Shown here piece by piece: positions 1-11,750 of a DNA stretch of 11,750 bases. How positions within the stretch are numbered: the stretch's first letter is position 1; each line of letters opens with the position of its first letter. The stretch is from NCBI GenBank assembly GCA_016840385.1, contig JAEOSL010000109.1, forward strand, positions 1-11,750, written 5' to 3'. The notes beneath the pieces are model-generated. The model was given only the letters and a program-made list of their open reading frames with translations, had not been told where the DNA came from and did no database searches. This DNA comes from Candidatus Thorarchaeota archaeon (GTDB taxonomy: Archaea > Asgardarchaeota > Thorarchaeia > Thorarchaeales > Thorarchaeaceae). The translations under genes were made by a program, and so were the position numbers.

Positions 1-218
1 ACTTCGAATTCATCTTCGCGGGCGATTGGTTTTACACCAGTACATTTCCCATGTGTCAGCCCAATGAAAGCCATCACGTCGTGGTCCAAATTACCACTAG
101 CTCTGGCAATGAAGACAAAATCCCCGGTCCACCAAGATGCTGCTTTCGCATACGCTTCGTTATTGTTGATTGCATCCTCGTAAAGACCCAACCACTCTTC
201 TGACATGAATTTCGGCAT
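1..218 (-). CDS. SCP2-like (sterol carrier protein) domain protein, 3' part cut by window edge
   Basis: The first 72 residues are visible; the gene continues past position 1. The start MPKFMSEEWLGLYEDAINNN is followed by A-Y-x-K-A-A-x-W-W-x-G-D-F-x-F and later H-G-K-C-T-G. This resembles small archaeal and bacterial SCP2-family proteins, which typically open with S-E-E-W, a helix with N-x-A-Y, and a strand of the form W-x-G-D-F-x-F. The family binds fatty acyl chains, acyl-CoA or isoprenoids in a hydrophobic tunnel; the ligand here is unknown. The ATG at 218-216 is chosen because an in-frame TAG lies a few codons upstream. No clear ribosome binding site precedes it. It lies 58 bases downstream of the MoaD-like gene on the same strand and is probably co-transcribed with it. 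Next to an acyl-CoA ligase, a lipid or acyl-CoA carrier role would fit, but that is inference. Family call from recall, without a profile search. Confidence 0.6.
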   Translation of the reverse strand, partial: MPKFMSEEWLGLYEDAINNNEAYAKAASWWTGDFVFIARASGNLDHDVMAFIGLTHGKCTGVKPIAREDEFE

Positions 219-276: not shown

Positions 277-558
277 CTACCCACCTGCAACAAGTGGGAA
301 AATCGATATCTCATCGTCAGATTCCAGAATGGTTTCCATCCCATTTAGAAACTTAATCTCTCTACCATTCTTCATGAAAGTAATGTCAGATTTGAGTTCT
401 CCAGTTTTATCCAATAGATGCATCTTGATTTTGGAATCCAGAATTAGCTCATCTAGGAGATTGGAGATTGTGGCACCATCTTTCATGTCAAACTCAATCT
501 TCGACTTTCGGTCAACGAGGTCTCCAAGATGCCCGTAGAACTTGACCGAAACCTTCAT
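277..558 (-). CDS. MoaD/ThiS-like ubiquitin-fold sulfur carrier
   Basis: A 93-residue protein with the beta-grasp layout of MoaD/ThiS. It opens with MKVSVKFYGHLGDLVDRK, has a central helix (about 29-40, A-T-I-S-N-L-L-D-E-L), then I-T-F-M-K-N-G-R-E-I and D-D-E-I-S-I-F-P, and ends exactly in V-A-G-G. In this family the C-terminal Gly-Gly is adenylated and thiocarboxylated to deliver sulfur for the molybdopterin or tungstopterin dithiolene, or for thiamine or thiolated tRNA. MoaD-like genes often sit beside AOR genes, and an AOR fusion starts about 80 bases away on the other strand, so a tungstopterin role is the best inference. The ATG start has AGAGGA (571-566) seven bases upstream and a TATA box about 35 bases upstream. 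Length and ends are normal for the family. Which pathway it serves is not decided by sequence alone. Confidence 0.85.
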   Translation of the reverse strand: MKVSVKFYGHLGDLVDRKSKIEFDMKDGATISNLLDELILDSKIKMHLLDKTGELKSDITFMKNGREIKFLNGMETILESDDEISIFPLVAGG

Positions 559-592: not shown

Positions 593-601
593 TTATAAAA
601 T
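593..601. promoter_or_regulatory. Shared TATA-like box between divergent genes
   Basis: TTATAAAAT reads as an archaeal TATA box in both directions. Placing transcript starts about 25 bases away gives about 622 on the plus strand, just ahead of GAGGT (630-634) and ATG 642. On the minus strand it gives about 572, just ahead of AGAGGA (571-566) and ATG 558. Both geometries work with short leaders. No convincing BRE was found on either side, so the preferred direction is unclear. Confidence 0.5.
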
Positions 602-641: not shown

Positions 642-3600
642 ATGATGTACGGTTACATGGGTAAAATTCTTCGAGTAAATCTGACAACCTCCACCATAAC
701 GGAAGAATTCCCAGATGATGAAACATTACGCAAGTATCTTGGAGGAGCCGGACTTGCAACAAAATATCTCTTTGATGAAACCGAACCAGGTATTGATCCC
801 CTTGGTCCGGAGAACAAGCTCATCTTCATGACTGGACCACTGACTGGCACACGATCTCCAAGTACAGGACGTTACAGTGTGGTTACTAAAGCACCACTTA
901 CCAATGGATGGGGACAGGCTAATTCTGCAGGATTCTGGGGACGCGATTTCAAACGCTCAGGATTTGATGGTGTCATCTTCGAGGGTGTAGCACCAAAACC
1001 AGTTTATCTTCTTACTGAAGATGAAAAGGCAGAACTTGTAGACGCTGAGGAGATCTGGGGACAGAACACATCTGATACCACTAGATTACTGAAGGAGAAG
1101 CACGGGAAGAAGTTCAACGTCACTTGCATCGGTATCGCAGGTGAGAAACTTGTCAAGTACGCTGCGATTATGAACGACTGCGATGAATGGGGATGGGGAC
1201 GAGCAGCAGGTCGTTGTGGCGTAGGTGCAGTCATGGGTTCTAAGAATCTCAAGGCAATTGCATCCAGAGGAACTATGACCATTCCTATTGCAGATGAAGA
1301 AGCTTATCGAAAAGAGGCCAAGCAAAGATTCGACTGGGTGAATCAGAGTATCCTGAAGATGACACTTGAGGTGTATGGTACAGCGACCATGGTTGACTTA
1401 GTTAGTGTCAAGGGAGGTATCCCAACTAGAAACTGGCAAACAGGAGTCTTCGAGAATGCAGACAAGATCAACGGGACTGCAATCAATGATCAGATACTAG
1501 TGAAGAGAAAACCCTGCTTCGCGTGTCCAATCCATTGTGGGAGAATTGCTGAGATCAAGTCAGGTCCTTTCAAGAGTAAAGGAGAGGGACCTGAGTACGA
1601 AACTATCAGCTCGTTTGGAACGATGTGTGGTGTTGATAATTTAGAAGCAATCACTCTTGCACACTTCCTCTGTAACGAGTATGGAATAGACACCATCTCT
1701 GCAGGAAACACTGTAGGCTTTGCAATGGAATGTTACCAGCGTGGAATTCTGAAAAGCGAAGATGTTGATGGAATGGATTTCTCTTGGGGTAATGCTCATC
1801 TAATTGTTGATATTGTTCACAAGATAGGCAAACGAGAAGGTGTCGGAAACCTGCTTGCTGAAGGGACAATGAGGATGGCTCAGAAACTCGGACAGGGTTC
1901 TGAACGATTCGCTATGAATGTTAAAGGACTCGAATTACCTGGATACGATAGTCGTGCGGCTAAAGTTACAGGACTTGCTTATGCAACTGCCAACAGAGGT
2001 GGAGACCATATCACTGCGTATATCGAGGGACCTGCATTTCTCAATATGCCATTCATGATCGTTGAAGAAGCAGACATTGGAGACCCACTAATAGAAGATC
2101 CAACAACATCCCTGATAGTCAAGAACTTCGAGGATGCGTTTGGAATCTTTGATGCTATCGGTGGTTGCAAGTTCATGGGGATGGTTCTAACAGCTGATGA
2201 CTGGGCAGGTCTCATGGGAACCCTCATGGGTATTGATTACACGGTTGATGAATTTCGCAAGACTGGGGAGCGGATATACAATCTTGAACGAGCCTACATC
2301 CTGAGAGAAGGATTCACTCGAGCAGATGATACTCTCCCACCACGAATGTTAGAAGAACCACTACCTGAGGGACCTGCAGAAGGTCACGTTGTAAACTTGG
2401 AGATTCTTCTCGATGCATACTACGAGTACCGTGGATGGGACGAACAAGGTCGGCCAACGAAGGAGAAGCTACGAGAACTCGGACTAGAATGGTTGATCGA
2501 TATTGTTTATGCGGATACGACTTCTGTTATGGAAACTCAAAAACAGAAAGTCCAGCAAGTTGTTACAACGGAGAAGAAAGAAAAAGTAGCAACGGAAGAA
2601 AAAGAAATCACGGGAGAGAAACCCTGGTTAGATAGTTACCAGATTGGTCCCTTCAAACTTGAACACTCAATGGCTCCCTATCCTGAGATGAACGTGTACA
2701 AGTTCCTTGAAGATACCACAGAGAAGTTTCCTGACATCGTAGCTTGTGAGTACGCTGGAGAAGAGATGAAGTATCCCGAATTGAAGGACAAGGTTGACAG
2801 ACTTGCATCAGCCCTCGTAGCAATAGGAGTGAAGAAGGGTGACACTGTTGCGACGGTGCTGCCCGGATGTCCTGAATTCATCATTGCAGATTACGCTGTA
2901 ATGAAGATTGGTGCAATCCATGTTCCATTAAGCATTCTACACAAGGAAGACGACCTACAGTACGAACTCAAGGAGAGCAAGACGAAATTCGCAATATGTT
3001 CCTACAGGCGTCTAGAACGGCTCAATGCAATAAAGTCTGAAACCAATGTGGAAACCGTCATCTATGTTCCGACAAAGCTCTTCCCAGATTACGAGTATCC
3101 AGAAATGGAAGAGATTCGGGATGAGAACTACTATCTCATGAGTGATCTGATTGAGAAACACGAACCTCACACAGAAACAGTCGAGATCAATCCGAAAGAA
3201 GACATTGCGCTTCTACCCTTCACTGGAGGTACCACTGGGCAACCTAAGGGGACAATGCTTTCTCACCACAACATCACATCCAATGTCAGACAGTCAATCC
3301 ACTGGATGATGGAGCCACTGAAGGAAGGGATCATAGGAAAGAGTTCTGCTGTTGTATGCGTACCAATCTTCCACGCATACGGTCACTGGGCGATTCATGC
3401 TTGTATCTCGTGGGGAATCAAGATGCACCTGATGGACTCACGTGATATTCCGAAAATTGTTGACACCATCAACAACCATCGCCCATTCATTGTGTTTGCA
3501 GTTCCAACTCATTACTCGATATTTTCACAAATGGATCTAGTGAAAGCCCAGATATTCTATTTCTCAGGAGCAGCAGCACTTCCCGAAGATCTTGCAGAAG

Positions 3601-4271
3601 AATTCGAGCAAAAGGCGGGTGTACCAATGGGTGAAGGTTATGGTGCAACAGAAACATCATGTATTGTTACCATAAATATCTCAGCACTTTCAAAGGTAAC
3701 TGGTTTTATGGATGAAACGAAGAGAGGAGTCGGGATTCCAGCCCCAGATACAGAAATCAAAATTGTAGATCCGGATACTGGACAAGAATTACCGATTGGT
3801 TCACGTGGAGAGATTTGGATACGAGGGCCTCAGATCATGACTGGGTATTTTCCTACACCGGGAAGTGGTTTGAAAGAGGGCGGATGGTTACCAATGGGAG
3901 ATATTGTCGAAATGGATAGTGATGGTTACTTCAAAGTCGTAGACAGGATAAAGGACATGATCAATGTTTCAGGGAACAAAGTGTACAGTAGAGTAATCGA
4001 TGATATCCTTCACGAACACGATGCTGTCGAGATTGCCGGTGTGATTGGTATCCCAGATCCAGAGAGACCTGGAAGCGAGCGAGTCAAGGCATTCATCCAG
4101 CTGAAACATGAGTACAAGGGTAAGGTTTCTGAACAGGACATCATTGACTTTCTCAAGGACAAAGTCAAGCCATATGCAGTACCAAAGTCGGTCGAGTTCA
4201 GAGATGAACTTCCACTGACTGTTGTCATGAAGCTATTCAAGAAGAAGCTTAGGGAAGAAGAAATTGGTTAG
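642..4271 (+). CDS. Fusion: tungsten aldehyde:ferredoxin oxidoreductase + AMP-forming acyl-CoA ligase
   Basis: A 1209-residue protein with two complete enzymes. Residues 1-625 form an AOR. It has the typical opening YMGKILRVNLTT, the G-A-V-M-G-S-K-N-L-K-A motif, the [4Fe-4S] Cys motif CFACPIHC (C292, C295, C299) and the fourth ligand C509 in DAIGGCKF. AORs use a tungsten or molybdenum bis-pterin to interconvert aldehydes and acids with ferredoxin. A charged Lys/Glu-rich linker (about 626-660) follows. Residues 662-1209 form an ANL-family ligase with the P-loop-like TGGTTGQPKG (861-870), YGATE (1000-1004), a G-D in W-L-P-M-G-D, DRIKDMINVSGNKV, and a C-terminal P-L-T-V-V-M-K with likely catalytic K1197; Met replaces the usual Gly before it. 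ATG 642 has GAGGT seven bases upstream and matches the AOR family start; the frame opens earlier at a TTG (561), but that lies upstream of the TATA box. The reading frame is unbroken and no ribosome binding site lies at the junction. The aldehyde or acid substrate is unknown. Confidence 0.93.
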   Translation: MMYGYMGKILRVNLTTSTITEEFPDDETLRKYLGGAGLATKYLFDETEPGIDPLGPENKLIFMTGPLTGTRSPSTGRYSVVTKAPLTNGWGQANSAGFWGRDFKRSGFDGVIFEGVAPKPVYLLTEDEKAELVDAEEIWGQNTSDTTRLLKEKHGKKFNVTCIGIAGEKLVKYAAIMNDCDEWGWGRAAGRCGVGAVMGSKNLKAIASRGTMTIPIADEEAYRKEAKQRFDWVNQSILKMTLEVYGTATMVDLVSVKGGIPTRNWQTGVFENADKINGTAINDQILVKRKPCFACPIHCGRIAEIKSGPFKSKGEGPEYETISSFGTMCGVDNLEAITLAHFLCNEYGIDTISAGNTVGFAMECYQRGILKSEDVDGMDFSWGNAHLIVDIVHKIGKREGVGNLLAEGTMRMAQKLGQGSERFAMNVKGLELPGYDSRAAKVTGLAYATANRGGDHITAYIEGPAFLNMPFMIVEEADIGDPLIEDPTTSLIVKNFEDAFGIFDAIGGCKFMGMVLTADDWAGLMGTLMGIDYTVDEFRKTGERIYNLERAYILREGFTRADDTLPPRMLEEPLPEGPAEGHVVNLEILLDAYYEYRGWDEQGRPTKEKLRELGLEWLIDIVYADTTSVMETQKQKVQQVVTTEKKEKVATEEKEITGEKPWLDSYQIGPFKLEHSMAPYPEMNVYKFLEDTTEKFPDIVACEYAGEEMKYPELKDKVDRLASALVAIGVKKGDTVATVLPGCPEFIIADYAVMKIGAIHVPLSILHKEDDLQYELKESKTKFAICSYRRLERLNAIKSETNVETVIYVPTKLFPDYEYPEMEEIRDENYYLMSDLIEKHEPHTETVEINPKEDIALLPFTGGTTGQPKGTMLSHHNITSNVRQSIHWMMEPLKEGIIGKSSAVVCVPIFHAYGHWAIHACISWGIKMHLMDSRDIPKIVDTINNHRPFIVFAVPTHYSIFSQMDLVKAQIFYFSGAAALPEDLAEEFEQKAGVPMGEGYGATETSCIVTINISALSKVTGFMDETKRGVGIPAPDTEIKIVDPDTGQELPIGSRGEIWIRGPQIMTGYFPTPGSGLKEGGWLPMGDIVEMDSDGYFKVVDRIKDMINVSGNKVYSRVIDDILHEHDAVEIAGVIGIPDPERPGSERVKAFIQLKHEYKGKVSEQDIIDFLKDKVKPYAVPKSVEFRDELPLTVVMKLFKKKLREEEIG

Positions 4272-4716: not shown

Positions 4717-6810
4717 CTAACAATTACTCGTTATGTAGACATACCACATCATATTCTCAGGCAAGGGGTCAGAGCATACGTAGCCGGACCCCTTTGCATG
4801 GTCATTGATAGGATCATCCAGTTGAGGTTGGAAGGGATTCGTTGAGTTCGTACCGTAGAACACTGCGACTTTCTTGTCATAATTTTGATGCTCAAGACCA
4901 GCTCTGAACCAGGATTCCATTATTGTGAGAGCTGGGAGTGGGTACAGACCTGTCATATAGAGGGCGAATTGTAATCCCATACTAGCGGTGTTCTTTGCAC
5001 TCGTAGCGAATCCACAGACTTGATGAATACCATGAAGGACAGGACCCCACAGTTCGAATACATTTAGCCCGTAATGATTATAGAATTGTAACACATTGCA
5101 TGATTCCATTGCTAGAGTTTCAAGGTCTCCATCACCCAATTTCAAATCACGGAAATCGGCGTATTCACCATCATGGTCAGATGTGAAAGAAATCGCGCCA
5201 GGATTACCATGCCCTTTGTAGTACACCATGTCTACTGCATCAATCCACTCAGAATCATTGCCATCGTTTTCAGTGGCTCGGAAGTCCGATTCCCAGGCAT
5301 TCCATTCACCCCAGTTGAACTCTTGACTATATCCGCCTGTTGTACTCATATGGTGGTAGAACCTTCCTGCATCGCTTTCGGAGTTGGTTAGTCTAGCCTC
5401 GTACGATAGACCCACCCATTCGACTCCAACCTCTTTGATGCCATCATCATAATCTCCTGTTGGAGTATTTGGTCGGAATTCATGATTGTCATCATCTTGA
5501 CTGTATGCTGTAGTGATTGGCAAGAATATGAAAGCTGAAAGTATTAGAAATAGGAAAGGCACTATCAATGAGCCTTTCTTCTTTGCAACAATAAGAAACA
5601 CTACCAGAAGGGCTATTGCCCCAAGTGCAATAAATACAATACCGGGATCAATACTCATTGCAGCAGTCGAATCAATTGTGACAGCAATGATGTCATAACA
5701 ATACTGATTTTCCGAGTCTCGAACAGTTAGTATTATTGGATGTGGAATACGTTCATTCTCCTTGAATACTTCAGAGAGAGTAGAAGTTGTGAAGTTCTTG
5801 GAATTACTTAGGACACCATCATGGAGAGAGTGCCATTGATATTGATAGGGTGGTGTTCCAAAGGACACCAGACAATCGAAGGTAATTGGAACTCCTGGTT
5901 GTCTTGTGATACTACTTGAGGACTGAATAATCCCGGTAAATGGTTGAAACTCTGTAGCATCAAACTTCAGATTCAATATAATTGGATTCCCTTCATCATC
6001 GGTCTCACTAAGAGTTACATCATAGACAGGATAGAGGAGGTCGTTGTTCGAATCTTCTTCACCAGTTTCATACACCAGATTGTATGCCACAACTGAATCA
6101 TCCGGGATTCCATATGTTGACAGGATAGAATCAAACTCTATGAGGACAGCAGTAGTATATGGAGTTGGAACGATGTCCCGCCATTTCCAGTCAAATCCTA
6201 CAATATTTTCAGCAGGACCGGGGATACCTCCACCGTCGCCAATGACGACCTTAATCCCCGCACTCTCTTCTGCAATTGGAGTATTGTCTATTTCAAAATC
6301 ATAATTGAAGTGATAATTGAGTATTTTTGAGTGCATCACATGAGTCTCAATATTGTATATCGTTGCATTGGTTGTCCCTATTCCGACAAACCCCGCATTA
6401 GCTGGGACCAGTCCCTTCTCATCCATCCATGCTTCAGCAATTGTCTGACACTCACCCTCACTCGGGAGATCATCACCCGACGAGATATTCCAGAGTCGAT
6501 CATAATCTGCAAACCAGATGGACCCATCCTTTGAGTCAACCTCAAAGTAGCTGTTACTCCAATTAACGAAGTAGATACCCTCGGTTTCTTGAGGTAGTAT
6601 GTCATGAAGACCAAAGAGAGATGATACCAGACTCTGCACGTAGGTTTCATTGACCTCGGGAGTTACCAGCTCATAAATTGGCATCTCCGTTTGCGATAAG
6701 ACAAAGCCAAGTGGTTCATGAGTTACCGTGGGTTCAGGTGTTGCAGAAGCATCTGTAAATGAAACTACAAGTAAAAGCAACAATAAGAGTAAGATTGCAT
6801 CCCTTCTCAA
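4717..6810 (-). CDS. Paralogue 1: secreted/membrane protein with Ig/PKD-like and C-terminal DUF6345-like (putative clan CD-like) domain
   Basis: 697 residues. A signal peptide (1-23, MRRDA then a Leu run, A-S-A) is followed by an N-terminal region (about 30-290) whose W-x-N-I-S, A-x-x-W-M-D-x-x-G-L and G-F-D-W-K-W motifs weakly suggest PepSY-like alpha/beta repeats. An Ig/PKD-like domain follows (about 300-380, P-I-T-F-D-C, GTPPYQYQWHS). Two membrane segments (389-409, 414-436) flank a cytoplasmic AKKKG loop. The C-terminal domain (about 455-697) has EVGVEW, GGYSQEFNWGEW, KGHG (H534), LGDGDLETLAMESC (C571) and HQVCGF, the pattern I recall for DUF6345. The His-Gly and Cys each follow a hydrophobic strand, as in clan CD peptidases; peptidase activity is inferred only. 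With the signal peptide, both large regions should lie outside the cell. The start is TTG with GGAGGT seven bases upstream. This is the most divergent of the three copies, for example K-G-H-G where the others have H-x-H-G. Confidence 0.85.
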   Translation of the reverse strand: MRRDAILLLLLLLLVVSFTDASATPEPTVTHEPLGFVLSQTEMPIYELVTPEVNETYVQSLVSSLFGLHDILPQETEGIYFVNWSNSYFEVDSKDGSIWFADYDRLWNISSGDDLPSEGECQTIAEAWMDEKGLVPANAGFVGIGTTNATIYNIETHVMHSKILNYHFNYDFEIDNTPIAEESAGIKVVIGDGGGIPGPAENIVGFDWKWRDIVPTPYTTAVLIEFDSILSTYGIPDDSVVAYNLVYETGEEDSNNDLLYPVYDVTLSETDDEGNPIILNLKFDATEFQPFTGIIQSSSSITRQPGVPITFDCLVSFGTPPYQYQWHSLHDGVLSNSKNFTTSTLSEVFKENERIPHPIILTVRDSENQYCYDIIAVTIDSTAAMSIDPGIVFIALGAIALLVVFLIVAKKKGSLIVPFLFLILSAFIFLPITTAYSQDDDNHEFRPNTPTGDYDDGIKEVGVEWVGLSYEARLTNSESDAGRFYHHMSTTGGYSQEFNWGEWNAWESDFRATENDGNDSEWIDAVDMVYYKGHGNPGAISFTSDHDGEYADFRDLKLGDGDLETLAMESCNVLQFYNHYGLNVFELWGPVLHGIHQVCGFATSAKNTASMGLQFALYMTGLYPLPALTIMESWFRAGLEHQNYDKKVAVFYGTNSTNPFQPQLDDPINDHAKGSGYVCSDPLPENMMWYVYITSNC

Positions 6811-6966: not shown

Positions 6967-9048
6967 TCAACATCCCGACGTGATATAGACAAGGTGATTG
7001 GTACTTCCAGGCGTTGGGTCTGAACAAACATATCCGAATCCGTACGCATGGTCGTTTATAGGATCGTCAAGCTGAGGTTGATACGGATTTGCAGACTTCG
7101 TGGCGTAGAATACAGCAGACACCTTATCGCTACTTTCAGTTTCTAGACATGATCTAAACCATGCATTCACTATCGTGAGGCTTGGATTAGTAAAGTAGCC
7201 TGTCATATAGATTCCGAATCCCACACCTGTTTTTGGAGAATTCGTACTTGATGTTTGAAAAGAACAGACTTGATGAATACCTTGCAGGGCAGGCCCCCAC
7301 CTCTCAAATACATTGTTACCATGCTTATCCTCCCAGGCTAATGGTTTGCATGCATCAATCGCGAGAGTATCTAGATCACCATCACCTAGTCTCAGCTCAG
7401 TAAAATTCAGAAAATGTTGATCGTGTTGGTAAGCCGTGAAACTAATACTAGTGGGACCTCCATGACTGTGCAGGTATGCAATGTCTACCGCATCTATCCA
7501 TTGATTATCGGTCCCACCAAAAGAAGTAGCTTTGAAATCTTCTTCCCAAGCTGAAAATTCTCCCCAATTGAACTCTTGACTGTAACCGCCTATTGCACCC
7601 ATCCAATCGTAGAAACCTTCAGTATTTTCCTCATTATTATACAAAGGGCTGTTTAGATGAGATAACCCAATCCATTCCACTCCGACTTCTCTGACATTAT
7701 CATCATATGCTCCTGAGGGTGGACTATATGCTATTTTTTTAGTGCTAGATATTCCACTACTTGCAGAGATGATAGGGAATAACATGAAAGCTGAAAATAG
7801 CATGATTAGAAGGGGCAATACGCGACTACCCTTCCTCTTCACTATTACGAAAGAGATGGCTAGAACAAAAACAGCACCTATGGCACTCAGAAGAACAAGA
7901 TTGAAGCCACTATTGATACGCGGGTACTCGACAGTTACAGCAATAACATCACTATCCCTTCTGCCCTCCGAATCCCAAACTACCACCGTAACCGCATGAG
8001 GTACAAGTACGTCTATCTTCAAAGGTTCTGAGAGCGTTGAAATTGAGAATGTACTTGCAGTGCTCAGGACACCATCAAAGTCGGAGTGCCATTCATAGAT
8101 ATAGGGGGGAGTCCCGTATTCAACTTCGCAATCAAAAGTAATGGATTGTCCAGGTGAAACTGTTATGCTATGACTGGGTATGGGGCTCACAATATCGACA
8201 TGTGGTTTATAATCGGTACCATCGAACTCTTCTTCGTAATAAACATCATTACCTTCATCATCAGTTTCGACACGGGATATCTCGTAAACAGGAAATAGAA
8301 AATTATTGTTATCATCTTCCATGGTGTCATAAACTAGTCTATGTTCTAACACGCTACTTGCAGGGATATCATAAACATCCAGAATAGACTCGTATTCTAT
8401 GAGATTCGCAGTGGTATGTACATCAGGCTTAACTTCTCTCCACTTCCAATCAAATCCTATTATTTCGCCTCCTTCACCCATCATGACTGATACTTGTGCT
8501 GACTCTCCGGTAATAGGAAATTCACCAATAGTAAATTCATAATTCACATGGTACTGAAGAATCTTTGAAAGAGTTTCTCCTGAATCTATGTTGTATGCTA
8601 TTGCAGAAGTGTTTCCAATATTTGTAAAGAATGCATTTGCAGGAAACAGTCCATTTTCATCTAACCACCTCTCCGCAAGTACACGACACTCACCTGGAGT
8701 AGTTTCACCTACTCCCAGAGAAATATTCCAGAGTTTATCGTAGTTTGCAAACCAGATAGACCCATCTGTTGAATCAACCTCGAGATAGCTGTTACTCCAG
8801 TTTGCTACATAGATCCCTTCTACTTCCTCTGCTAATACATCATAAATACCAAAGAGTGAGGATGCTAGACTTTGTACATAGGTCTCATTCACATCAGGAA
8901 TTATCATCTCGTAAATTGGCATCTCCGTTTGTGATAGAACAAAGCCAAGTGGTTCACGAGTTGCTATGGATTCAGGTGTTGCAGAAGCATCTGTAAATGA
9001 AACTACAAGTAAAAGCAACAATAAGAGTAAGATTGCATCCCTTCTCAA
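6967..9048 (-). CDS. Paralogue 2: secreted/membrane protein with Ig/PKD-like and C-terminal DUF6345-like (putative clan CD-like) domain
   Basis: 693 residues from the TTG at 9048-9046. The frame also opens at a GTG (9072), but GGAGGT lies seven bases before the TTG, and the GTG is out of frame in the otherwise matching upstream region of paralogue 1, so TTG is preferred. The layout matches paralogue 1: signal peptide (1-23), N-terminal region with D-G-S-I-W-F and G-F-D-W-K-W, Ig/PKD-like domain (about 298-375, GTPPYIYEWHS), membrane segments 383-403 and 408-429 around a KRKG loop, then the C-terminal domain. Key residues are H529 in H-S-H-G and C567 in T-L-A-I-D-A-C. The second membrane segment ends in S-A-S-S, like a signal peptidase site. 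The final residue is Cys, as in all copies. The protein is closer to paralogue 3 than to paralogue 1, especially in the last 150 residues. Substrate and biological role are unknown. Confidence 0.85.
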   Translation of the reverse strand: MRRDAILLLLLLLLVVSFTDASATPESIATREPLGFVLSQTEMPIYEMIIPDVNETYVQSLASSLFGIYDVLAEEVEGIYVANWSNSYLEVDSTDGSIWFANYDKLWNISLGVGETTPGECRVLAERWLDENGLFPANAFFTNIGNTSAIAYNIDSGETLSKILQYHVNYEFTIGEFPITGESAQVSVMMGEGGEIIGFDWKWREVKPDVHTTANLIEYESILDVYDIPASSVLEHRLVYDTMEDDNNNFLFPVYEISRVETDDEGNDVYYEEEFDGTDYKPHVDIVSPIPSHSITVSPGQSITFDCEVEYGTPPYIYEWHSDFDGVLSTASTFSISTLSEPLKIDVLVPHAVTVVVWDSEGRRDSDVIAVTVEYPRINSGFNLVLLSAIGAVFVLAISFVIVKRKGSRVLPLLIMLFSAFMLFPIISASSGISSTKKIAYSPPSGAYDDNVREVGVEWIGLSHLNSPLYNNEENTEGFYDWMGAIGGYSQEFNWGEFSAWEEDFKATSFGGTDNQWIDAVDIAYLHSHGGPTSISFTAYQHDQHFLNFTELRLGDGDLDTLAIDACKPLAWEDKHGNNVFERWGPALQGIHQVCSFQTSSTNSPKTGVGFGIYMTGYFTNPSLTIVNAWFRSCLETESSDKVSAVFYATKSANPYQPQLDDPINDHAYGFGYVCSDPTPGSTNHLVYITSGC

Positions 9049-9050
9049 CT
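8971..9050. repeat. 80-bp direct repeat, copy B (start codon and signal-peptide region)
   Basis: Identical to 6733-6812. Similarity continues at lower identity upstream through the ribosome binding site, inverted repeat and TATA box, and downstream into the codons for the F-V-L-S-Q-T-E-M-P-I-Y-E stretch. Confidence 0.9.
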
Positions 9051-9055
9051 TTTCA

Positions 9056-9061
9056 ACCTCC
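9056..9061 (-). promoter_or_regulatory. Ribosome binding site deciding the TTG start of paralogue 2
   Basis: GGAGGT on the minus strand ends seven bases before TTG 9048. It lies inside the reading frame that would be used from the upstream GTG, which argues against the GTG as the start. Confidence 0.8.
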
Positions 9062-9079
9062 CAATGAGTCACGCGAAAT

Positions 9080-9140: not shown

Positions 9141-9168
9141 AATCTCTAATCTCTATAATTAATCTCTA
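9141..9168. repeat. Short AATCTCT repeats upstream of paralogue 2
   Basis: The heptamer AATCTCT occurs at 9141-9147 and 9148-9154 in tandem and again at 9161-9167, overlapping the SGNH stop codon. It lies directly upstream of the paralogue 2 promoter box. It may be a regulator site or simple-sequence drift. Confidence 0.4.
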
Positions 9169-9885
9169 AGATGGTGTAGATTCAAGAAGAATAGGTTTCA
9201 CTATCGATGTCCAAATCTCATATCCAAGTTCAGTCATGTGAATTCCATCCCATTTGAATAATTCAGGCCGGGGAGTACCTTCGGTGGTAAGCATAGGAGG
9301 AACAATATCGATGTAATGAAGTAGGTCATTAGAATTACAAAATTCCTCAACGAGAGAATTTGCTCTCTTCATTTCATCCCAGAGTTTCTTTCGTCTCTTG
9401 GGAGGTTTGATTGATATGAAGTAGATTGGAACTTCAAGCAATTGTCCATGAATCTTTTCACAAAATTCACGGAAGTTATTCTTCACTTCTTCTGGAGTCT
9501 TCTTCTTTGTATAGAATAAACCTGAGAGATCATTCTCACCAGCATAGAAGACTATTGATTTTGGCTTATATGGAAGTACAATACGGTCTACATAGTAAAT
9601 AGCATCAGAAATTCTAGAACCACCAAATCCACGATTCAAAATATTTAGGGGGGTCATATCCTGTTTCAGCGTATTCCAGTATCGAATACTTGAGCTACCA
9701 GTGAAAAGAATAGCACCTTCTGTTGGTGGGTTTTCAATATCCTGCTTTTCATACTTGCTGATTTCACGTTCCCATATAGTCGGGTCTCCACTGTTTAGTT
9801 TCGCTCGAAATCTCAAAATGAAGATTAACGCGAAAATAATACCTATTACTATTGCACCAACAGAAACCGTCAGTAATGTGTTCAT
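9166..9885 (-). CDS. Membrane-anchored SGNH/GDSL-family hydrolase
   Basis: 239 residues. An N-terminal membrane anchor (about 4-26) is followed by a complete SGNH domain. Block I is FTGSSSIRYW (catalytic Ser probably S65), block II NRGFGGS (Gly for the oxyanion hole), block III YAGEND (N118) and block V DGIHMTELGY (D213, H216). The family hydrolyses esters such as lipids, acetylated sugars or arylesters; the sequence gives no substrate. The entry W-E-R-E-I-x-x-Y-E and the stretch Y-F-I-S-I-K-P-P are typical of a widespread subfamily of outer-surface or exported SGNH esterases. The orientation of the anchor is uncertain: the flanking R-F-R-A-K on its C-terminal side would favour a cytoplasmic domain by the positive-inside rule. 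The ATG has AGGAG ten bases upstream. The gene starts 70 bases after paralogue 3, so it may be reached by read-through. Confidence 0.88.
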   Translation of the reverse strand: MNTLLTVSVGAIVIGIIFALIFILRFRAKLNSGDPTIWEREISKYEKQDIENPPTEGAILFTGSSSIRYWNTLKQDMTPLNILNRGFGGSRISDAIYYVDRIVLPYKPKSIVFYAGENDLSGLFYTKKKTPEEVKNNFREFCEKIHGQLLEVPIYFISIKPPKRRKKLWDEMKRANSLVEEFCNSNDLLHYIDIVPPMLTTEGTPRPELFKWDGIHMTELGYEIWTSIVKPILLESTPS

Positions 9886-9955: not shown

Positions 9956-11750
9956 TTAGCAACTCGATGTGATATAGACGAAGTTCTTGTATACTCCAGG
10001 AGTAGGGTCACTACACACATAGCCGAATCCGTAAGCATGATCATGAATCGGATCATCCAGTAGTGGTTGATACGGGTTCGAAGACTTTGTTGCATAGAAA
10101 ACAGCAGACACTTTATCGCTACTTTCGGTTTCAAGACATGCTCTGAACCACGCATTCACTATCGTTGCACTCTGAAGAATATTGAGACCTGTCATGTAGA
10201 GTCCGAATCGGGGACCTGTTTCTGGAGAATTTTGACTGTTGGAAGCAAAACCACAGACTTGATGAATGCCTTGAAGCGCAGGAGCCCACCTTTCGAAGAC
10301 GTTAACACCATCCTTATCTTCCCAAGCTAATGGTTTGCATGCATCCATTGCGAGTGTATCAAGATCACCATCACCCAGACGCATTTCAGTAAAGTTCAGC
10401 CACGATTGATCATGCCACGATGTGAAACCAAGACCATTGGGACCTCCATGAGTATGAATATACACAAAATCTACAGCATCTACCCATTCATTGTCAGTCC
10501 CACCAAACGAAGGATCAACAAAATCTTCTTCCCAAGCACTATATTCATGCCAATTGAATTCTCTACTATAACCACCGACATTCCCCATCCAATTGTAAAA
10601 ACCTTCAGTATTCACCTCATTGTTGTACAATGGTTTCTTATGATGCGACAAACCTATCCACTCTACTCCTACTTCTAAGAAACCATCATCATAGGCTCCA
10701 GTAGGTGCGCTAGGTGTCAGTTCATTAGTGACAGGCATTCCACTTCCAGCAGATACGATTGGGAGGAAGATAAATGCGGAAGTTAGAAAGACGAGAAATA
10801 CCAACACAAACATGCCCCTCTTTTTCACAATGACAAAAGATATGGATAGAAGAACAACTGCGCCTAAAGCAATCATAACTACTCCCACATCAATAAGGAT
10901 AGGTGGGTCCTCGATAGTTACAGCTCTAGCTTCACTATCCCATCTGTTCTCGGAATCCCAAACAGAAACCGAAATCGCATGGGGTACAAGTACCTCCTTC
11001 TTCATCTGCTTAGAGAGTGTCGAAATAGAGAATGATTTAGAGGTACTCAAGACTCCATCAAAATCTGACCGCCATTCATAGGTATAGGGAGGTGTTCCCA
11101 AAACAACAGTGCAATCAAACGTAATGGATTGCCCTGACTGAGTGACCAGACTACTTGCAGGGTCGTGAATGATAACACGTGGGCTAAATTCTGTGGCATC
11201 GAATTTCAAGTTGATGTGAATATCATTCCCATCATCATCAAGTTCAATCCAAACTATTTCGTAGACAGGGACTAGAAGTGTATCACCGGGGTCAGTAAGA
11301 TCATACACCAACCTATTGCTTACAACGCTGTCTGCGGGAATTTCATTTACATCCAGAATTGATTCGTATGTAATGAGATTTGCAGTTGTATAGACATCAG
11401 GTTCAATATCTTGCCACTTCCAGTCAAATCCGACTATTCCACCACCTTCACCAATCATCACTGAAATTTGTGCGGTTTCTCCTGTAACTGGATATTCACC
11501 AATTGTGAATTCGTAATTGACATGATATTGAAGAATCTGTGAATCGGATTCACCAGAATCTGTATTGTATATTCTCGCGGTAGTATTTCCAATATTTGTA
11601 AAGAATGCATTTGTCGGAAGTAGTTCATGAGTACCAAGCCACGTATCTGCACCTGTGCGACATTGGCTTGGAGTAGTTCTATCTATTGCTAGACTAATAT
11701 TCCAGAGTTTCTCATAATCAGCATACCAAAGTGAGCCATCGCTTGAATCA
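9956..11750 (-). CDS. Paralogue 3 (5' end beyond window): Ig/PKD-like, two membrane segments, C-terminal DUF6345-like domain
   Basis: The last 597 residues are present; roughly the first 95 residues, including any signal peptide, lie beyond the window edge. The frame is open without interruption to position 11750. The ATG and GTG near 11461 are internal, because the upstream codons encode matching paralogue sequence (D-G-S-L-W-Y-A-D-Y, N-A-F-F-T-N-I-G-N-T, Y-E-F-T-I-G-E). Numbering from the edge: an Ig/PKD-like domain at about 205-280 (GTPPYTYEWRS), membrane segments 288-308 and 313-334 around KKRG, then the C-terminal domain with H434 in H-T-H-G and C471 in L-A-M-D-A-C. The second membrane segment ends in V-S-A-G-S, a possible signal peptidase site. 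It ends VYITSSC, with the terminal Cys shared by all copies. It is most similar to paralogue 2. Function is inferred only from the domain pattern. Confidence 0.85.
   Translation of the reverse strand, partial: DSSDGSLWYADYEKLWNISLAIDRTTPSQCRTGADTWLGTHELLPTNAFFTNIGNTTARIYNTDSGESDSQILQYHVNYEFTIGEYPVTGETAQISVMIGEGGGIVGFDWKWQDIEPDVYTTANLITYESILDVNEIPADSVVSNRLVYDLTDPGDTLLVPVYEIVWIELDDDGNDIHINLKFDATEFSPRVIIHDPASSLVTQSGQSITFDCTVVLGTPPYTYEWRSDFDGVLSTSKSFSISTLSKQMKKEVLVPHAISVSVWDSENRWDSEARAVTIEDPPILIDVGVVMIALGAVVLLSISFVIVKKRGMFVLVFLVFLTSAFIFLPIVSAGSGMPVTNELTPSAPTGAYDDGFLEVGVEWIGLSHHKKPLYNNEVNTEGFYNWMGNVGGYSREFNWHEYSAWEEDFVDPSFGGTDNEWVDAVDFVYIHTHGGPNGLGFTSWHDQSWLNFTEMRLGDGDLDTLAMDACKPLAWEDKDGVNVFERWAPALQGIHQVCGFASNSQNSPETGPRFGLYMTGLNILQSATIVNAWFRACLETESSDKVSAVFYATKSSNPYQPLLDDPIHDHAYGFGYVCSDPTPGVYKNFVYITSSC

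Follow-up and report, generated by a model that had tools for sequence, protein, structure and literature searches.

A Thorarchaeota protein joining an aldehyde ferredoxin oxidoreductase to an acyl-CoA ligase, a probable ferredoxin-reducing route from aldehydes to acyl-CoA

The Asgard archaea, which include the Thorarchaeota, are the archaeal group nearest to eukaryotes, and to our knowledge the substrates and partners of the many aldehyde ferredoxin oxidoreductases (AORs) encoded in their genomes are mostly uncharacterised. The question of which aldehyde such an enzyme oxidizes, and for what, is raised by a gene in the window analysed here (a stretch of 11,750 nucleotides from Candidatus Thorarchaeota), which encodes an AOR and an acyl-CoA ligase as a single chain. 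The gene occupies 642..4271 on the forward strand as one uninterrupted frame of 1209 residues, with its start at 642 or possibly at 645, since residue 2 is the first residue in most relatives of our alignment A1. The AOR half, residues 1–620 (642..2501, forward), matches the Pfam domains AFOR_N (residues 7–211, 255.2 bits) and AFOR_C (238–615, 464.1 bits), and the ligase half, residues about 660–1209 (2619..4268, forward), matches AMP-binding (690–1070, 289.9 bits) and AMP-binding_C (1119–1194, 50.2 bits). All four matches lie above the gathering score, bearing out the initial annotation of both enzymes in one polypeptide, and no further Pfam domain was found at an E value of 0.001. We propose, with a probability of about 0.62 and from sequence comparison, that the two consecutive enzymes of this polypeptide constitute a ferredoxin-reducing, ATP-pulled module that converts aldehydes to acyl-CoA.

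The fusion is real, and the main catalytic residues are intact in both halves. A stop or frameshift between the domains, named at the outset as a possible refutation, was not encountered, as the linker frame is open in nine Thorarchaeota DNA loci and, in a tenth (L016), as far as an assembly gap just within the ligase. We dropped the reading of this last locus (genome G004) as an AOR joined to some other partner, because the linker and first ligase residues are followed there by the run of X that represents the gap. It could be argued that the fusion is an artefact of assembly or annotation, given that the sequences, going by their titles, are all environmental (metagenomic) and that four proteins with 85–92% identity to the fused clade contain a single half (P0121, P0122, and P0128 of the ligase and P0236 of the AOR). 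Each of the four is shorter than a whole half and lies on a contig of less than 4 kb, and they could be fragments from contig ends or interrupted frames. A frameshift or mis-assembly is ruled out by the occurrence of the frame on many different contigs and by purifying selection of similar strength on both halves (dN/dS 0.027–0.035 against two relatives, with dS saturated), and we give an artefact practically no credence.

In the AOR half, the four cluster cysteines are exactly where they had been placed (C292, C295, C299, and C509) and align with C288, C291, C295, and C494 of Pyrococcus furiosus AOR. The positions of E332 and H383, the dimer-bridging iron ligands of archaeal AOR, are occupied by L339 and V389 in the fusion. 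These ligands do not define the whole family, because the AORs of Aromatoleum and Moorella are reported likewise to lack both typical dimer-iron residues (PMC6365974). The second-shell residues Thr243, Glu313, Tyr427, and His448, named in a review (PMC12096430), have their counterparts in T247, E320, Y435, and H456. In P. furiosus numbering, the four cysteines, E313, Y427, and H448 are kept in all 60 rows of the tree and T243 in 59, the remaining row having a gap. Asn345 occupies the position of Asp338 of P. furiosus AOR (59/60 rows), and the position of Tyr452, also named in that review, is Tyr in only 43 of the 60. With its AFOR_N and AFOR_C domains, the four 4Fe-4S cysteines, and the second-shell Thr/Glu/Tyr/His, this half falls by sequence with the AORs sensu stricto.

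The ligase motifs reported initially are also in place, namely TGGTTGQPKG (residues 861–870), YGATE (1000–1004), and the C-terminal lysine, K1197. In the motif naming of the ANL superfamily, the P-loop Lys is K869, the YGATE Glu is E1004, the A7 Asp is D1087, and the A10 Lys is K1197; all four are invariant across the 24 fusions of alignment A1, and the P-loop Lys is replaced by Arg in one of the 21 fused rows of the tree. The P-loop, YGATE, A7, and A10 residues together with the AMP-binding and AMP-binding_C domains place the half in that superfamily. Its A8 stretch, NVSGNKVYSRVIDDIL, departs from the usual consensus, as it does in the split relatives, and the fold model is of low confidence around the A10 Lys. 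Among the best 25 of 108 NCBIfam families, none had its cut-off reached by the ligase half. In particular, the PRK06187 long-chain-fatty-acid-CoA ligase subfamily gave 371.9 bits against a curated cut-off of 476, so that the half looks like a long-chain-fatty-acid-CoA ligase by sequence yet falls outside this subfamily.

The two halves are joined by a charged linker, residues 626–654 (2517..2603, forward), that is predicted to be disordered in the fold model of the whole protein and varies in length and sequence among relatives (15–50% identity in four comparisons). The initial annotation was right that the linker is charged and in frame but not that it is free of internal start sites, as residue 630 (2529–2531) is an in-frame ATG and residue 618 a TTG. 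Several other fused loci also have in-frame start codons in the linker stretch, and at L003 and L011 a Shine-Dalgarno-like stretch precedes a TTG late in the AOR half. These codons, and a disordered linker that might be cleaved, would allow the cell to make two proteins after all. We consider this very unlikely, since a simple motif check found no Shine-Dalgarno-like stretch upstream of either ATG 630 or TTG 618 in the window, Lys stands at the position of ATG 630 in P0002, the closest relative at 92% identity, and no start position is common to the loci that were scanned.

How such a chain arose can be read from its relatives. AFOR and AMP-binding domains share one chain in 46 of the 120 protein clusters listed, 37 of which have all four domains. 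Two observations concern single members, in that the L008 fusion (genome G005) lacks its first 245 residues, in frame, and the sequence of P0043 is garbled around residues 76–95. The split orthologues are adjacent genes in identical order and strand in Lokiarchaeota, Hodarchaeota, Heimdallarchaeota, some Thorarchaeota, Bathyarchaeota, and two loci of Chloroflexota, a class scan of which matched 2 of 249 genomes and found a fusion in none. Their AORs are about 55–76% identical to the AOR half and, when the longest frames are used, the two genes overlap or are separated by 5–72 bases. Among 40 loci collected with two scan patterns, both confined to the AOR half, 37 have the ligase either fused to the AOR or in its vicinity, compared to one weak match at 20 paralogous AOR loci. 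The expectation that the two families are usually separate is thus too simple for these orthologues.

The fused proteins form two clades in the trees of each half, one of Thorarchaeota and one of a Hodarchaeota-like group, and the same gene pair thus appears from the trees to have been fused twice. Both half-trees require two changes and an AU test, run on the AOR tree only, gave p = 1.9e-9 for a single fused clade, which together rule out a single origin. The likely sister of the Thorarchaeota fusions differs between the trees, being a set of split Thorarchaeota-like pairs in the AOR tree (support 84/58) and Lokiarchaeota L013/L034 in the ligase tree (81/58). In the proposed origin, the AOR of an ancestral adjacent pair would have lost its stop codon and the short intergenic stretch would have become a flexible linker. 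The close spacing of the split genes and the disordered, poorly conserved linker are also what a neutral read-through would leave behind, in which tethering provides equal expression and no kinetic coupling. This is possible but doubtful, as the identical fusion in identical order arose twice by these trees and every one of the 17 Thorarchaeota-clade rows in them is fused. Two apparent fusions of the same pair suggest that the two enzymatic steps work together.

The neighbouring genes bear on the substrate and on the direction of the reaction. Divergent from the fusion is a small protein of 93 residues similar to MoaD/SAMP1 by profile matches (277..558, reverse strand), probably a sulfur carrier for the metallopterin, and a candidate archaeal TATA box, TTATAAAA, lies between the divergent genes as read from the sequence (593..600, forward). 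The window edge truncates an SCP2-fold lipid-carrier gene (1..218, reverse), leaving a piece of 72 N-terminal residues. The piece itself has no Pfam match, but it is 68–85% identical to SCP2-like genes at seven Thorarchaeota loci, and its full-length relatives match SCP2 in Pfam, with profile and fold in agreement. SCP2 is near 31 of the 40 pair or fusion loci (20/23 with complete 3-kb flanks) compared to 2/20 paralogous AOR loci, and MoaD is within 3 kb of 19 (12/23 with complete flanks) compared to 2/20; both queries were picked for their recurrence at these loci, which makes their presence there partly a product of selection, and what carries weight is the difference from the control. Despite full flanks, SCP2 is absent from L008 (a fusion), L015, and L035, and MoaD from 11 of the 23. 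A 136-residue gene near the Thorarchaeota fusions (F5) has no Pfam match. Acyl-CoA dehydrogenase and 3-hydroxyacyl-CoA dehydrogenase families were found in six of six fusion-bearing genomes, and one of these, G003, has a 3HCDH gene on the opposite strand about 0.6 kb from the fusion.

The module might also run in reverse as an electron sink, in which acyl-CoA or free acid would be reduced to an aldehyde with reduced ferredoxin. An alcohol dehydrogenase would then turn the aldehyde into an alcohol, and the ligase would either regain ATP from acyl-CoA, AMP, and PPi or compete for the acid. Some AORs are reported to reduce non-activated acids (PMC12096430, PMC10816221). Iron-dependent alcohol dehydrogenase (Fe-ADH) genes are found less than 1 kb from the pair at 7 of the 40 loci, but the control loci have them at 3 of 20, and without enrichment we no longer count Fe-ADH among the constant members of the module. 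Moreover, AMP-forming ligases usually operate in the direction of acyl-CoA formation, and a fused ligase would consume the acid that the reverse reaction requires. We regard this direction as unlikely.

For the preferred aldehyde-to-acyl-CoA module we infer an activity, a metal, a direction, a lipid-type substrate, and a physical coupling, as follows. In the AOR half, a tungsten (or molybdenum) bis-pterin site would oxidize R-CHO with H2O to R-COOH, the electrons passing via the 4Fe-4S cluster to ferredoxin, and the ligase half would convert R-COOH, ATP, and CoA via the acyl-adenylate to R-CO-CoA, AMP, and PPi. ATP-driven removal of the acid would pull the otherwise nearly reversible AOR towards ferredoxin reduction, and the carbon would enter acyl-CoA metabolism (beta-oxidation). 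The SCP2-fold protein, encoded by a gene of its own, probably ferries the hydrophobic substrate, the MoaD-like protein probably acts in cofactor synthesis, and the fusion would hold both activities near each other in a 1:1 ratio. The initial suggestion of a coupling between aldehyde oxidation and entry into acyl-CoA metabolism gains support from the conserved adjacent pair, the two fusion clades, and the linked lipid-carrier gene.

The substrates are probably lipid-type aldehydes. The same chemistry could instead serve the short, branched, or aromatic aldehydes of amino-acid fermentation, as the last Asgard common ancestor has been proposed to have degraded amino acids (PMC7015854) and the Hermodarchaeota AORs to oxidize aldehydes from 2-oxoacid oxidoreductases (PMC8163825). 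Two points make this rather improbable, namely the linkage with the SCP2-fold lipid carrier and the long-chain designation of Archaeoglobus fulgidus FadD-1, the solved ligase closest in sequence. Tentatively, and with more doubt than for the module itself, we also suggest that the tungsten and adenylating sites form a fixed assembly with direct transfer of the acid, as the initial annotation envisaged, and that this assembly receives long-chain or isoprenoid aldehydes from the SCP2-fold carrier. The pTM of the fold model (0.81) is above what we would expect for two unrelated rigid bodies, although only 19 of the 68 alignment rows hold both halves and the linker is predicted to be disordered. 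If so, a single ATP-pulled step on lipid aldehydes would supply Asgard archaea with both strong reducing power and acyl-CoA, a route that differs from NAD-dependent acylating aldehyde dehydrogenases. In more general terms, the adjacency of the pair across several archaeal lineages and its two fusions reveal the reaction downstream of the AOR and turn the question of which aldehyde, and for what, into an assay of a single protein, and the linked carrier hints at lipid-type substrates and so bears on the diet of the archaea nearest to eukaryotes.

Both enzyme families were already known. A full-text search of the open-access literature found no description of this architecture, in agreement with the initial annotation. 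The AOR half resembles P. furiosus AOR (PDB 1AOR; 550.8 bits over residues 2–615) and shares its Fe-S cysteines and second-shell Thr/Glu/Tyr/His, but 1AOR is stand-alone, without a ligase, and has E332 and H383 (the dimer-iron ligands) where the fusion has Leu and Val. The best solved sequence relative of the ligase half, FadD-1 (PDB 3G7S; 201.7 bits), is likewise stand-alone and only distantly related. Carboxylic acid reductases, with their adenylation-carrier-reductase architecture, also carry adenylating and acid/aldehyde redox domains on a single chain, but the fusion has neither carrier-protein nor NAD(P)H reductase domains in Pfam, which rules out a comparable carrier mechanism, and AOR acts on free acids. 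Fusions of AOR to PF00215 (OMP-decarboxylase/hexulose-phosphate-synthase-like), found in Methanomethylicaceae and Nezhaarchaeota among the matches listed, similarly join AOR to a metabolic enzyme, although the partner is a different one and the proteins have about 830 residues. The closest counterparts are the split AOR and ligase pairs of this analysis, which have orthologous halves in the same order and strand but are two proteins.

The reading frame at 642-4271 (plus strand) is open across all 1209 codons and carries AFOR_N, AFOR_C, AMP-binding and AMP-binding_C domains, each above its Pfam gathering score, which bears out the proposal of the initial annotation that an AOR half and an acyl-CoA ligase half are joined in a single polypeptide. 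The nearest named relative among the matches listed is a Thorarchaeota protein (P0002, 92% identity), which makes a Thorarchaeota origin of the window most likely. The catalytic roles of AOR residues follow a review that names Tyr452 among them (PMC12096430). When the AOR halves of the 60 rows used for our trees (21 fused and 39 split, that is, with the two enzymes as separate adjacent genes) were aligned with P. furiosus AOR, the four Fe-S cysteines, which the annotation had described as intact, were identical in every row, as were the equivalents of E311, E313, D343, Y427, H448, and D489. T243 is matched in 59 of 60 rows (one gap) and Y312 in 59 (one Phe), the Tyr452 equivalent is Tyr in 43 and otherwise Phe or Trp, and the D338 position is Asn in 59. 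The positions of the dimer-iron ligands are not kept in this alignment. The diagnostic ligase residues were likewise said to be intact, and K869 (P-loop), E1004 (YGATE), D1087 (A7), and K1197 (A10) are invariant in the 24 fusions of one alignment; the P-loop Lys is Arg in one of the 21 fused tree rows, where for some motifs the commonest variants are listed. Motif A8 reads NVSGNKVYSRVIDDIL and is common to split relatives. Relative to the fused loci L001 and L002, respectively, the AOR half has a dN/dS of 0.027 and 0.031 and the ligase half one of 0.035 and 0.033, and that of the linker is 0.39, 0.19, 0.96, and 0.26 relative to L001, L002, L004, and L005, with dS near or past saturation and values for both halves not computable for the last two.

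The architecture search that the annotation had suggested (AFOR plus AMP-binding) returned at least 46 one-chain proteins including the query, with AFOR_C and AMP-binding together as the criterion, and all four domains occur in at least 37, both among 120 matches listed of 1583. Readable organism names assign ten of the 46 to Thorarchaeota and one each to Promethearchaeota and Hodarchaeota. In a genome collection described as comprising 84,980 species, two patterns from the AOR half matched at 40 loci, nine of which are fused by frame analysis (L001-L006, L008, L010, L011), all titled Thorarchaeota, while a tenth so titled (L016) is fused as far as an assembly gap. Split pairs occupy 28 loci, with the genes adjacent on one strand and AOR before ligase, in Lokiarchaeota, Hodarchaeota, Heimdallarchaeota, Bathyarchaeota (L038, where a contig edge cuts the AOR), Chloroflexota (L015 and L036), and one locus titled Thorarchaeota (L029). 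The ligase is absent at L035 and at L040, whose AOR is cut by the contig end. Of 227 genomes from the phylum of L001, scanned at 1e-165 with the top three candidates per genome scored, 56 match; as read from their rows, the fusion occurs in 11 (some interrupted by contig ends or gaps), a split adjacent pair in 28, one half only in six, and nothing but a more distant AOR in 11. Six of 256 genomes in the class of the Bathyarchaeota locus match, two with adjacent split pairs (G364 and G429) and the others partial, as do two of 249 sampled from the class of L015, and the fusion was found in neither set.

Trees for each half comprised 60 rows (58 different), drawn from 37 loci, 14 of the 37 four-domain proteins, and nine pairs of separate proteins matched up by equally long contigs; seven of 44 loci, truncated or missing one half, were left out. 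The fused rows form two clades in both trees, and two changes are needed on each. One clade is of the Thorarchaeota type (17 rows) and the other, known here from four protein clusters (P0038, P0039, P0041, and P0043, all from JGI, P0041 also from NCBI), lies beside the split Hodarchaeota locus L028 within a Hodarchaeota/Heimdallarchaeota group. A single fused clade was rejected when forced on the AOR tree (p-AU 1.9e-9). The AOR-ligase architecture is real, conserved, and evolved twice.

In near split relatives the AOR C-terminus resembles ...LGLDWVIDIIY and the ligase N-terminus MSYQEKPWLKSY; the junction here, ...LGLEWLIDIVY-(linker)-GEKPWLDSY, resembles both, so that the two inner ends of the fusion look complete, and the linker appears to occupy the former place of the stop codon and short intergenic gap. 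The linker stretch, which a script could delimit in all of 38 proteins but P0019, where its pattern did not fit, has 75-81 residues in the Thorarchaeota type and 83 in all four of the second clade; that it is open at the DNA level rests on the frame-analyzed loci, as proteins cannot reveal stops. AlphaFold confidence is mostly high in both halves and below 50 at linker residues 626-654; it also falls below 50 in two brief segments, one at the P-loop and one surrounding the A10 Lys. At two loci of a split Thorarchaeota-like clade (L049 and L051) the frames lie 6 bases apart, in register, with one stop codon between.

The left window edge holds the first 72 residues of a minus-strand SCP2-like lipid-carrier gene (68-85% identity to seven Thorarchaeota loci). 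This piece has no Pfam match; its full-length relatives match SCP2 at 25.4 and 24.0 bits (cut-off 21.3) and Thermus SCP2 (2CX7) with a profile E of 3e-27 and fold TM of 0.76/0.87, and row 36 of the fold-search matches is 1PZ4, an SCP2 structure in complex with a C16 fatty acid. At 277-558 (minus) a domain match identifies a MoaD/SAMP1-like protein, and the pairing of MoaD with neighbouring AOR genes is already known from archaea (PMC2948915). Within 3 kb of the 40 orthologous loci we found the ligase at 37, SCP2 at 31, MoaD at 19, and Fe-type alcohol dehydrogenase (Fe-ADH) at seven, compared with one, two, two, and three for 20 paralogous control AORs, where the controls were hand-picked from four fusion-bearing genomes and the cases came from 40 contigs, the SCP2, MoaD, and Fe-ADH queries were drawn from the orthologous loci themselves, and flanks, many cut by contig ends, were measured outside the pair for one set and outside the AOR for the other. 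Even so, ligase and SCP2 differ strongly in frequency between the two sets; Fe-ADH shows no such difference. One paralogous AOR (L080, contig 9 of genome G002) directly adjoins an Fe-ADH and lies about 2.4 kb from an SCP2-like gene that shares 51% identity with the family, possibly a second alcohol/aldehyde module. AOR and ligase paralogues are numerous in each of eight Thorarchaeota/Lokiarchaeota genomes (G001-G008), with 12-25 matches to the fusion at E 1e-40.

We propose that the AOR half would oxidize an aldehyde to the acid with reduction of ferredoxin, and that the ligase half would then convert the acid to acyl-CoA at the expense of ATP. Support for such consecutive reactions comes from the order of the fused halves, from the existence of two fusion clades, and from the linked genes for a carrier and for the cofactor. 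A loose tether, with the halves working uncoupled, is less likely. Acyl-CoA dehydrogenase and 3-hydroxyacyl-CoA dehydrogenase families are present in 6 of 6 fusion-bearing genomes, in one of which (G003) the latter gene lies about 0.6 kb from the fusion on the opposite strand. Operation of the module in reverse, from acyl-CoA or free acid toward aldehyde, seems unlikely. A lipid-type substrate is favored by SCP2, and aldehydes derived from amino acids would be less likely natural substrates.

Downstream lie three tandem minus-strand genes for proteins of about 700 residues that look secreted or membrane-anchored (4717-6810, 6967-9072, and 9956-11749, the last cut); the first matches DUF6345 and the others are similar by eye. 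A GDSL-type lipase/acylhydrolase (9166-9885, minus; domain match, its N-terminus including a segment that looks hydrophobic by eye) sits between the second and third. Genes comparable in size to the three tandem ones follow the fusion at L001 and L002.

The annotation was aware of no description of this architecture, and neither fusion nor gene pair appears in the titles and abstract beginnings of the open-access matches listed, nor is the fusion mentioned in the parts covered of PMC11291895, PMC8163825, PMC2948915, PMC12096430, PMC6365974, PMC12533140, PMC9723677, PMC8027215, PMC7015854, and PMC9295118; as this scope is that of open-access main texts, a prior mention is possible. A different fusion of about 830 residues joins AOR to a PF00215 domain (P0053-P0069 and others), with source names including 3-hexulose-6-phosphate synthase (Methanomethylicaceae) and orotidine 5'-phosphate decarboxylase (Nezhaarchaeota), and perhaps combines formaldehyde oxidation and fixation within one chain. 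Five further proteins (P0072, P0086, P0089, P0090, and P0093) have a ThiS/MoaD domain within the AOR chain, echoing the separate MoaD gene that adjoins the fusion here. The AOR-ligase architecture itself is assembled from already known enzyme families.
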